NCBI GenBank assembly: GCA_947501275.1
Contig: CANMVD010000001.1
Coordinates: forward strand, 1,736,001 to 1,800,000
From: an uncultured Tateyamaria sp.
GTDB taxonomy: Bacteria; Pseudomonadota; Alphaproteobacteria; Rhodobacterales; Rhodobacteraceae
DNA: 64,000 nt
Direction of reading: 5' to 3'
Shown here piece by piece: positions 29,881 to 33,502 of this stretch; within the stretch, counting starts at the first letter, position 1, and the number at the start of each line of letters is the position of its first letter. Below the pieces are notes generated by a model that made no database searches, was not told the DNA's origin, and saw only the letters and a list, made by a program, of their open reading frames with translations. Both the position numbers and the translations under genes were made by a program.

Positions 29881-30141
29881 ATGACTCACGGATTGTACAA
29901 ACGCCACGCCGATCTGGTGGATCGCATGGCCTCTGCCCGCGGCATTGATTTGCAAGAGGCGTCAATGCGCGCCGGGCTCTCACCAGATGATCTTGCGGAT
30001 ATGGTGCAGCGCTGCGCCGGCTGCGCCCACGCGGGCGCCTGTGCGGCGTGGCTGGATGCACGCCTCGGAGCGGTCAGTAAAACGCCAGTGTTTTGCCGAA
30101 ACGCGGATGTGTTTGACGCATTGGGCCGCGCGTCAGGCTGA
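29881..30141 (+). CDS. DUF6455 family small cysteine-rich protein
   Basis: The 86-residue protein has clustered cysteines in CAGCAHAGACAAW (residues 41-53) and a further FCRNADVFDAL near the end. This arrangement fits the DUF6455 family common in Rhodobacteraceae. The cysteines suggest a metal or iron-sulfur site, but the role is unknown. GGATAA lies 6-11 bp before the ATG. Its 3' end overlaps the convergent hemolysin III gene by 9 bp, so no terminator fits between them. Confidence 0.7.
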   Translation: MTHGLYKRHADLVDRMASARGIDLQEASMRAGLSPDDLADMVQRCAGCAHAGACAAWLDARLGAVSKTPVFCRNADVFDALGRASG

Positions 30142-30765
30142 CACACCCAATGTAACGGCCCCGAAAAAACATGTGGAGGCGGCGAGGACAAAGCCATGCC
30201 AAATCGCGTTCTGATAACGCAATGCATCACGCGCATAGAACACGGTGCCCAACGTATACAGCAACCCGCCTGCCACAATCAGCGCGAGGCTTGGGCCGGG
30301 AAGATGTTGCCACATGGGCCAGATCAACAGCACGCTGGCCCACCCCAGAGCGAGATAAAGCGCCAGCGACCCACGCCCGTCTGTCGCCCAAAAGCTCAGC
30401 TTGGCCATGGCGCCGATCAGGGCGATGCCCCAGACTACGGCCAATACGCCGTAGGCGAAAAACGATCCAATCAGTACAACCAGAGGCGTGTAAGTGCCCG
30501 CGATCTTGAGGTAAATCGCAGCGTGGTCGATCCTGTGAAGTACCGGGCGCGTTCGATCCCACGGCAACAGATGATATGCGGCCGAGGCGACCAAGGCAAA
30601 GATCAACATCCCTGCATAAACACTGGTTGCCGCGATCTGAGGCACCTCTTGGGTGCGGATCACGTAGCTCATCAGAAATGCGCCTGCCGTGATGGCACTG
30701 CCGACGCCAAGAACATGAACGGACGCGTCCGCAAGCGTTTCGCGCAATGAGTGGGGATATGCCAT
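30133..30765 (-). CDS. Hemolysin III / PAQR-family membrane protein
   Basis: The 210-residue protein has about seven hydrophobic helices. The family histidines are present: SVHVLGVGSA near residue 16, SAAYHLLP near residue 65, RIDHAAIYLKIAGTYTP near residues 78-94, and WHGFVLAAS near the end. They form a zinc site in PAQR relatives. The name comes from a Bacillus hemolysin, but the bacterial function is not established. ATG 30765 was chosen because the upstream extension is not membrane-like. It converges on the DUF6455 gene with a 9-bp overlap. Confidence 0.85.
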   Translation of the reverse strand: MAYPHSLRETLADASVHVLGVGSAITAGAFLMSYVIRTQEVPQIAATSVYAGMLIFALVASAAYHLLPWDRTRPVLHRIDHAAIYLKIAGTYTPLVVLIGSFFAYGVLAVVWGIALIGAMAKLSFWATDGRGSLALYLALGWASVLLIWPMWQHLPGPSLALIVAGGLLYTLGTVFYARDALRYQNAIWHGFVLAASTCFFGAVTLGVSA

Positions 30766-30812
30766 GACTGCAGCCTTTCGTGAATTTGGCCAGCAGTCTA
30801 GCGCGATAGTGG

Positions 30813-31190
30813 TCACGAATGCGTTGACGTTGCCACCCTTCGCAGATGCCAACGGTAAATCAGCGGGGCAAGAACAAAGTCATATGCCCAGCAGGCCACC
30901 CGGTAGATGCCCGGCACAGCCACCAGCCGCGCCAACCAGCGATAGCGTGGCATATCTTGCCACAGCACAAGAAATGCGGGGATGCCGCCATACACGGTTC
31001 CGTCCTTGACCACATGCAAGCGGCGCGCAGCCTCGTCTGCAGTAATATTCCAATGCTGCAACGCACCTGAATTCAGATCGTCAAAGCGAATGGGGATGCC
31101 TTCCCGCGCGGTGTAGGCCGCGTAGTGGTCAATCTCGAAGCTGCACACGGGGCAGTCAGCGTTGTAAAGGACGCGCGTTTCGTCTGTCAT
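30813..31190 (-). CDS. DCC-family (DUF393) thiol-disulfide oxidoreductase-like protein
   Basis: The 125-residue protein opens with VLYNADCPVCSFEIDHY, the DxxCxxC motif that names the DCC family (Cys13, Cys16). The rest keeps the thioredoxin-like pattern with a middle GGIPAFLVLW segment and a C-terminal region of aromatic residues. It is predicted to be a thiol-disulfide exchange protein, but no substrate is known. It lies 47 bp upstream of the hemolysin III gene on the same strand and could share its transcript. Confidence 0.82.
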   Translation of the reverse strand: MTDETRVLYNADCPVCSFEIDHYAAYTAREGIPIRFDDLNSGALQHWNITADEAARRLHVVKDGTVYGGIPAFLVLWQDMPRYRWLARLVAVPGIYRVACWAYDFVLAPLIYRWHLRRVATSTHS

Positions 31191-31241
31191 ACCTTACAGA
31201 TAGGCACCGCGCGCACGATGTCACCGGGCATTGCGTCGCAC

Positions 31242-31592
31242 TCAGCGCGGTTTGTTTCCGTCAATCCACCGAGACATCAACGTGCGATCCTTGAAACAAC
31301 TCTGCGGGATGTCCCGGCGTTTCAGACGCGCGATGCGCTCGGCGAACTGGACTTGCTTTGCACTGGGATAGTTGGAGAAACGGCTGGTCGGCTGCGCGTT
31401 TTTCGTCTTGTCGATCCACGCAGATAAACCTGTTCGATCCCGCAACAGCGCCGCTGGCAAAGCCGCTCCGGTCCGGGCAGCCAAAGACTGGGCATAACTG
31501 ATTTGTTTTTCAGTTGCTGGCTGTGGCGGAGTTATGGGCAAAGCCCCCTGTTCTGGGTCAAACAGGCCGGGCAGGGAAGGATGATAAGACAT
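31242..31592 (-). CDS. Putative SOS-induced protein with a duplicated 38-residue module
   Basis: I do not recognise a named family. The 116-residue protein holds two modules, residues 27-64 and 77-114, that align without gaps and share 13 of 38 positions. The shared residues include KQ, A-x3-A, P, DRT and S-x-WID-x2-K. From memory the module resembles short tails on some plasmid-type topoisomerases, which would suggest DNA contact; this is unconfirmed. The start is ATG 31592. A strong promoter with a LexA-type box over its -10 lies about 25 bp upstream, so induction by DNA damage is inferred. Confidence 0.65.
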   Translation of the reverse strand: MSYHPSLPGLFDPEQGALPITPPQPATEKQISYAQSLAARTGAALPAALLRDRTGLSAWIDKTKNAQPTSRFSNYPSAKQVQFAERIARLKRRDIPQSCFKDRTLMSRWIDGNKPR

Positions 31593-31617
31593 GGCGTTGT
31601 TCCATTTGCTCGAAGGA

Positions 31618-31651
31618 GAACAAATATAGAACAAAACTTATGTAAATTCAA
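31618..31651 (-). promoter_or_regulatory. Promoter with a LexA-type SOS box
   Basis: On the minus strand TTGAAT (31651-31646), a 17-bp spacer and TATATT (31628-31623) form a near-consensus sigma-70 promoter. GTTC-N7-GTTC (31632-31618) covers the -10 exactly. That spacing is the SOS box bound by LexA in alphaproteobacteria. A transcript start near 31616 leaves a leader of about 24 nt. Confidence 0.65.
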
Positions 31652-31681
31652 GACATCGGAGTTTTACGTTGAAAATCAACG

Positions 31682-31921
31682 CTAAAGACCTGAATGTGAC
31701 CCGTCGCACAAGGGAGCATTTTCTGTTGCCTTGCATCCGCAAAAGAACAGTTTCTTGCTGTCTTGTGCCGTATACTTCATCGGCTCCATGCCGCTGCCCT
31801 GATGAGACCCGTCACAGAATGGCTGCCTTGAGGACATCCCGCAGGTGCACCAGAAGTATGTTTTGCCTGCCTCGACGTCGACCGGATAGGGGGCTTTCTG
31901 TGCGATCTTGGGCGTTGTCAT
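31682..31921 (-). CDS. Double CDGSH iron-sulfur protein
   Basis: The 79-residue protein carries two CDGSH modules: WCTCGMSSRQPFCDGSH (about residues 22-38) and FCGCKATENAPLCDGSH (about residues 59-75). Each has the CxC-x-CDGSH ligands that hold a redox-active [2Fe-2S] cluster with three Cys and one His. Tandem bacterial members form compact monomers with two clusters, and electron transfer or iron sensing is proposed. ATG 31921 has AAGGA upstream. It lies between the putative SOS gene and rimO, each separated by short gaps. Confidence 0.9.
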   Translation of the reverse strand: MTTPKIAQKAPYPVDVEAGKTYFWCTCGMSSRQPFCDGSHQGSGMEPMKYTAQDSKKLFFCGCKATENAPLCDGSHSGL

Positions 31922-32125
31922 GGCGGCGGTCCTTTCCGTTCCGGTATGACGAAAAGCTAACCGAGCGCGCGTTGGTTTCAAGGGCGAGGACGGGATGCAG
32001 CCAAACTGCACGCTTTGCAGGCGCGGTTTTTTCCCCTGCCCGCGCCAACTGCAACCAACGCTGCGGTAAACGGCGCTGTTGAGAGACGAAAACCCTTCCT
32101 AAGGTTCTAAAGCGGAACGACGCAG

Positions 32126-33502
32126 CTAACGGCCATCCAATCGGCCCCATAGGTCGTATTCGCCCGCTTCGTCCACTTCTACTGTGACGATTTCGCCTGA
32201 CTTCAATGACTCGAAACCTTCGTCAATGAACAGGTTGCCATCAATTTCCGGAGCATCAGCCTTGGTGCGGCAAGTTGCAGCCTCTTCATCGACTTCGTCG
32301 ACAATCACCTCGATCTTTGTGCCGACCTTGGCTTCCAGCTTGGCTGCCGAGATGGCTTGGGCCTTTTCCATAAACCGGTCCCAGCGGTCTTGCTTGACCT
32401 CCGGAGGGACATGATCGGGGAGTGCGTTTGAACGTGCGCCTTCGACGTTTTCGTATTGAAAACACCCCACACGGTCGAGCTGGGCTTCGTCCATCCAATC
32501 CAGCAGTGTTTGAAATTCTTCCTCAGTTTCACCGGGATACCCAACGATGAAAGTGGATCGCAGCGTGATATCCGGGCAGATGTCGCGCCATTCCGCAATT
32601 CTGTCCAATGTCCGTTCCGCCGCTGCCGGGCGTGCCATTCGACGCAGCGTGTCCGTGTGCGCATGTTGGAACGGGATATCGAGATAGGGCAGCACAAGCC
32701 CGTCTGCCATCAGTGGGATCAGTTCGCGCACATGCGGGTATGGATAGACATAGTGCAGGCGCACCCACGCCCCCAATGACCCAAGATCACGTGCCAGATC
32801 GGTTATGTGGGCACGGTGTCCGCGATCCTCGGCGTGTTTGATGTCTACGCCATAGGCCGAGGTATCCTGCGAGATCACGAGCAGTTCACGCACGCCTGCC
32901 TCAACCAGCTTTTCGGCCTCCCGCACAACCGCGTGGGCTGGGCGAGATGCAAGGCGTCCGCGCATGTCAGGGATGATGCAGAATTTGCACTTGTGATTGC
33001 AGCCCTCTGAAATCTTGAGATAGCTGAAATGGCGCGGTGTCAAAGACACGCCAGAGGCGGGCAAGAGATCCACAAACGGATCAGGATCCGGCGGCACCGC
33101 AGCGTGCACAGCGTCAAGCACTTGTTCGTATTGATGTGGCCCAGTCACGGCGAGCACCTTGGGATGCGCTCCGGTGATATAGTCAGGTTCCGCCCCAAGG
33201 CAGCCTGTCACGATGACCCGCCCGTTTTCGGTCAGGGCCTCCCCAATGGCATCAAGGCTTTCGGCCTTGGCGCTGTCCAGAAATCCGCACGTGTTCACGA
33301 TCACCGCATCGGCACCGCTGTAATCGGGTGAAATCCCGTACCCTTCGGCCCGAAGCCGAGTCAGGATGCGTTCGCTGTCCACCAAGGCCTTGGGGCAGCC
33401 AAGGCTGACCATTCCAATGGTCGGCTGATTGGCGCGACGCGTCCGCTCCATGCGAAGCGGCGGCGCGAGGTCGGGGCGTAGGTTTGGCGGGTTTGTGCTC
33501 AT
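32126..33502 (-). CDS. rimO: Ribosomal protein S12 methylthiotransferase RimO
   Basis: This 458-residue radical-SAM enzyme adds a methylthio group to an aspartate of ribosomal protein S12. The N-terminal UPF0004 domain has [14 protein letters not shown], with further cluster cysteines in VNTCGF and VTGCLG. The radical-SAM motif is CNHKCKFC in [24 protein letters not shown] and the bifurcated specificity are those of RimO rather than MiaB. A TRAM domain closes the protein. I prefer ATG 33502, which has GAGG upstream, over an ATG four codons earlier. Confidence 0.94.

Follow-up and report, generated by a model that had tools for sequence, protein, structure and literature searches.

A small gene of Rhodobacterales under likely SOS control encodes two topoisomerase III tail modules without the enzyme

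What is the role of a small gene whose promoter is overlaid by a motif resembling a LexA operator, and whose product has no counterpart in curated family libraries? The question is raised by a locus in a 64,000-nucleotide (nt) stretch of DNA from an uncultured Tateyamaria species, referred to here as the window, within which coordinates are given unless stated otherwise. Promoter, box and gene all lie on its minus strand. The frame at 31242-31592 encodes a basic protein of 116 residues (P0001; isoelectric point, pI, 10.3) and is preceded by a -35 element, TTGAAT (31646-31651), and, 17 nt away, a -10 element, TATATT (31623-31628). The latter is spanned by a LexA (SOS) box, GTTC-TATATTT-GTTC (31618-31632), predicted from its motif and its conservation. 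We propose that the gene is very likely controlled by LexA, and that its product, a tandem of two modules known from the C-terminal tail of topoisomerase III, may serve, where DNA is single-stranded or undergoing recombination, as an adaptor or a competitor.

A preliminary description of this DNA had reported the 116-residue frame, a near-consensus promoter TTGAAT-N17-TATATT at 31651-31623, and GTTC-N7-GTTC over its -10 element at 31632-31618. All three were confirmed: the promoter agrees with consensus at 9 of 12 positions, and the box is an exact match on the minus strand. A longer frame, beginning from a TTG at 31634, is unlikely, as its start would fall inside the promoter. Taken alone, these signals carry little weight. 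The promoter is one of two promoter-like sites in the interval 30000-32200, for which shuffled sequence gives a mean of 0.9. The window contains three exact GTTC-N7-GTTC matches against 1.86 expected (at least three occur in 31 of 100 shuffles), the remaining two fall within long open frames, and the 136 matches found genome-wide compare with 169 for a reversed control pattern. A single box is thus at chance level in both window and genome, and we rejected it as stand-alone evidence. We judge it to be more than chance because it is conserved before homologues of the gene, and not because of its single occurrence.

Two overlapping samples of homologues, whose counts are not additive, carry this argument. 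In the first, a search of 295 family genomes yielded 81 homologue places in 66 genomes, and 75 of these were examined, the window's own included; the six left out were three partial places in one genome (G222), two inside the topoisomerase of another (G022) and one weak match in a third (G212). The second comprises the best 80 named loci of at least 507 relatives. An exact GTTC-N7-GTTC lies upstream of the gene in 72 of the 75 family places (30/30 in one set, 42/45 in the other) and in 80/80 named loci. At two of the three misses (L208 and L225) degenerate half-sites still stand at the expected position; the third (L221) has no half-sites. When the spacing was varied from N3 to N12, leaving out N7, the named loci gave N6 in five cases and N9 in one, and the 45 family places gave N3 in four and N12 in one, with no others in either sample; of 2692 intervals of equal length taken elsewhere in the 80 named loci, 3 contain the box itself on either strand. 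The proposal, exposed beforehand to refutation by orthologues lacking the box, therefore largely held. Among five annotated plasmid loci, the box precedes the gene in four, the copy without it being that of Octadecabacter pOA238_160.

The form of the promoter is preserved along with the box. An alignment of the 80 promoters, with the half-site that precedes the -10 element as its anchor, is strongly conserved at the -35 element (including the TTG seen in the window), at the half-sites and at the -10 element, with little conservation elsewhere except for a weak purine-rich stretch at the position expected of a ribosome site. TTG and TA lie exactly 17 nt apart in 60 of the 80, with TA alone in 15, TTG alone in four and neither in one. 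Three half-site positions are in use, the upper two in 48 loci, the lower two (the window's type) in 16, and all three in 16, which implies that the operator has moved by 11 nt between lineages and yet stayed on the promoter. Distances from box to start range from 19 to 50 nt in the set of 30 places, partly by construction because start codons were picked downstream of the box.

In the window's genome, GTTC-N7-GTTC also precedes lexA (GAACGTCCGTAGAAC), recA (GAACACAATGAGAAC), uvrA and an imuB-like polymerase gene, in support of the earlier assignment of this motif as the alphaproteobacterial SOS box, and of its use as such in this host. The Caulobacter SOS consensus matches as well: two Caulobacter SOS genes have the box GTTCttgttatGTTC, according to PMC12700426, and this sequence recurs identically at 9 of the 75 homologue places, one of them on a named Neotabrizicola plasmid. 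From the sequence, we therefore regard SOS (LexA) control of the gene as very likely, and the reading of its product as an uncharacterised DNA-damage response protein, already put forward in the preliminary description, as the best supported one.

Other boxes of this kind were noted in passing. A gap of just 8 nt separates that of the imuB-like gene (L081, 1924-1947) from the first ATG in the frame, so that the promoter layout may differ there or translation may begin at a more internal codon. At about 1837350 on contig C1 of the same genome, a frame of 90 residues (L083, 2051-2323) has an exact box, GTTCCTTATTTGTTC, 33 nt before its start; it has no Pfam or NCBIfam family and is a second candidate SOS gene. 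A frame of 87 residues at about 1812500 on C1 (L082, 1788-2051), likewise with no family in Pfam or NCBIfam, lies 40 nt behind GTTCCCCCTTTGTTC. A further box, GTTCTATTTTTGTTC (L046, 10235-10249), precedes another gene on a contig with a tail-bearing topoisomerase.

What, then, would be induced? The product was described as containing two gapless 38-residue modules placed 50 residues apart and identical at 13 positions, and this internal repeat is borne out, as none of 1000 shuffles reaches 13 identities (mean of the shuffle bests, 7.3). In the structure model, module 1 (residues 24-64; 31401-31523) has predicted helices at 28-41, 47-51 and 53-66, and module 2 (residues 74-114; 31251-31373) at 78-91, 97-101 and 103-113. 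The latter, which includes Cys99 and Trp109, is the better conserved and, modelled alone, reaches a predicted local distance difference test (pLDDT) score of 92.7. The two are probably joined as a flexible string, as judged from the model. Invariant in 41 sequences are Q30/Q80, A34/A84, W59/W109 and C99, the cysteine of the IPxxC/VPxxC motif is present in 121 of 121 sequences (P0001-P0121), and all 121 are basic (pI 9.4-11.2). For 28 Tateyamaria pairs, the ratio of nonsynonymous to synonymous substitution rates (dN/dS) lies at 0.02-0.15; when the window gene is compared with seven relatives, four comparisons give 0.06-0.11 and the other three are saturated. Such low values identify a real gene under purifying selection.

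The claim that the protein belongs to no recognised family stands for P0001 in curated libraries, where nothing rises above threshold (Pfam DUF3072 at 11.6 bits against a cut-off of 27.5; none in NCBIfam), but its isolation was overstated. It has 368 relatives at an expectation value (E) <= 0.001, those named to genus or family among the 120 listed being Rhodobacterales, and it has homologous tails in topoisomerase III; the absence of relatives is thus rejected. One family homologue place proved to lie inside an enzyme of 787 residues that has both a Toprim and a Topoisom_bac domain, and a search with the tail of this enzyme found 16 such enzymes. In 15 of the 17 tails, the query included, the core is followed by a first module and then by the same two modules as in P0001, in the same order; the exceptions are P0131, without the last module, and P0138, in which it is aberrant. 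Seven aligned tails are 36-47% identical to P0001, and BLASTP to one of them (P0122) gives E 3e-21. On sequence comparison, the modules of P0001 are the last two tail repeats of a plasmid-type topoisomerase III, and the earlier suggestion to look at topoisomerase tails was correct.

The small proteins nevertheless form a group distinct from the tails. In a tree built from 47 rows and 96 columns, the split between the two has 99/99 support; seven 98-residue forms make up one clade (100/99), and another (89/88) holds the window gene together with rows from Tateyamaria, Sulfitobacter and Roseobacter. No exact LexA box was found within 250 bp upstream of the three tail-bearing topoisomerase genes examined. 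In the window's genome the module pair occurs once, and there is one topoisomerase of this class, which in our reading is a topoisomerase I by its different tail; this host would have no topoisomerase III. A protein of 181 residues from short contigs (P0156) has three modules and no enzyme core, so that the unit looks like a modular repeat, which suggests a wider modular family.

We suggest the following mechanism. LexA would sit on GTTC-N7-GTTC over the promoter and repress it, the motif and its conservation being what is observed; upon DNA damage, RecA would trigger self-cleavage of LexA and the gene would be expressed. The product consists of two C-terminal tail modules of topoisomerase III without the rest of the enzyme, and each of them would be a small helical docking domain for SSB, for another fork, recombination or repair protein, or for DNA itself. 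As a basic protein with two modules it could bridge or compete, and so work as an adaptor or a competitor where DNA is single-stranded or recombining; its most likely hold would be on SSB, on another fork or recombination protein, or on DNA. Cells and plasmids would then make it when single-stranded DNA accumulates. Plasmids have a copy of their own with the box, and in several of them DNA-processing genes adjoin it. To this explanation as a whole, an SOS-induced two-module adaptor or competitor, we assign a probability of about one half. A more specific version is speculative: the protein could be a damage-induced decoy, a LexA-controlled free topoisomerase III tail serving as a two-headed SSB- or fork-binding adaptor that displaces or recruits repair enzymes in the SOS response and during plasmid entry, in a host that need not itself own a topoisomerase III.

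The alternative that survives best keeps the SOS control and replaces the partner. The modules, which may be SAP/LEM/HeH-like, could be hairpins resembling helix-extension-helix folds that bind DNA directly and coat or bridge damaged or incoming plasmid DNA, without involvement of SSB. No solved structure gives a significant match, and basic charge is by itself unspecific; we consider this account rather doubtful. Structure matches to Wind/ERp29, a histone fold and T4 endonuclease VII were not significant. A fold comparison with predicted phage proteins, among which similar folds do occur, places a HeH/LEM phage protein at rank 22 (E 3.9). A phage origin was rejected: a search of 50,697 phage records gave no match, and IMG/VR yielded no confirmed one.

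Could the gene instead belong to mobile elements, as a plasmid anti-SOS or DNA-entry factor domesticated beside rimO and without a role in chromosome repair? It is present in only 66 of the 295 family genomes, and 149 plasmid records match, of which 76 are typed conjugative; in at least one record the matching sequence is a topoisomerase tail. The set is heavily redundant because a single genus, Pseudosulfitobacter, accounts for 73 of the records. Plasmid DNA-processing genes adjoin in three of five annotated records, as a strawberry-notch NTPase with a toprim protein and RadC (one with SSB) or as a zincin-like gene with one for a ParB-like protein, and one further contig has an ArdC-like neighbour; in the other two records the gene lies among unrelated genes. 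Against this explanation, the gene is kept beside rimO in at least 65 of the 80 named loci and is under purifying selection, which suggests a cell function, and the tree, with 17 of 44 inner branches open, leaves the direction of transfer unresolved. A purely mobile role appears improbable. Least probable is a LexA-silenced division regulator or growth-arresting protein, like SidA of the Caulobacter SOS division block or an SOS-held toxin: the gene is small, its promoter is covered by the box, and Caulobacter has such a small SOS division inhibitor (PMC4211646), but SidA is a 29-residue inner-membrane protein, whereas P0001 has 116 residues and no membrane segment (top 19-residue hydropathy 0.78; below 1.6 in 121/121 sequences), is kin to topoisomerase tails, and has no partner gene that recurs across the chromosomal and plasmid contexts examined.

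The chromosomal neighbourhood is largely conserved. A DCC1-like thiol-disulfide oxidoreductase gene (Pfam PF04134; 30813-31190, minus strand) lies 51 bp downstream of the P0001 gene and is followed, in conserved order, by a HlyIII-like gene (30133-30852, minus strand). Among the 80 named loci, rimO upstream (counted above) is accompanied by a DCC1-like gene downstream on the same strand in at least 52 and by a HlyIII-like gene in at least 57, all three counts being lower bounds because 10 loci are incomplete. No minus-strand terminator-like site was found between the P0001 gene and the DCC1-like gene in the window; read-through is therefore possible, and the DCC1-like and HlyIII-like genes might be co-induced from the SOS gene. 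A class-wide search found matches in at least 5 of 289 genomes, the window's own and one relative among them. As at most 18 first-look candidates were scored per genome, this count does not show absence outside the family, and there are matches on plasmids from Martelella and from bacterium NT-25.

We found no earlier description of the gene in the portions available of the papers searched, including PMC6473078, PMC9044938, PMC7305329, PMC9426580, PMC3925955, PMC13384398, PMC4211646 and PMC12700426; LexA target tables in supplements and subscription papers lie beyond this search. Regulator and module each have relatives that are known; what none of these papers was found to contain is their combination, a topoisomerase tail that stands free and is under likely LexA control. 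The likely SOS response of a common group of marine bacteria thereby gains a gene that is strongly conserved and apparently undescribed. It also connects that gene to an enzyme tail for whose role we found no account in the literature searched, and a chromosomal response to a box-bearing plasmid gene, many of the plasmids being typed conjugative.

Among known families, DUF3072 (PF11272) weakly matches module 1 of P0001 (E 0.26) and 6 of 41 homologues at E <= 0.1, but P0001 stays below its gathering score. TyeA of type III secretion (PF09059) is matched at E <= 0.1 by 7 of 41 homologues, the best of them at 0.0002, and a relative of 111 residues, P0151, passes its cut-off (24.9 against 21.1 bits, residues 55-101). 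P0001 has no match; that of P0151 takes in 46 of the 81 profile positions and extends from where module 1 ends into module 2. The likeness to TyeA may be one of helix pairs by chance. Weak matches in some family members were to TfoX_N (12/41, best E 0.0068), Arc-like repressors (5/41, best E 0.0081) and phrog_12199 (2/41, best E 0.0042). The modules could be binders of the SSB tail akin to the C-terminal domain of lambda Red-beta, which has a similar three-helix arrangement: 44-46 of 49 module residues align at 1.9-3.1 Å, although identity is 4-6% and there is no sequence match. On SSB and Red-beta, PMC13244152, PMC9512822 and PMC8034648 were consulted. The plasmid-type topoisomerase III (P0122-P0138) has the two modules of P0001 in its tail, in the same order, but adds a core, an extra first module and, in some enzymes, longer inter-module linkers, whereas P0001 has neither Toprim nor Topoisom_bac domain and shares with the enzyme the tail modules alone. 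With regard to the LexA/SOS regulon of alphaproteobacteria, for which an in-silico LexA screen of Dinoroseobacter is reported in PMC6473078, the window gene is absent among the SOS genes described in the papers searched, but it has the exact motif over a sigma-70-like promoter, as before the SOS genes of its host.
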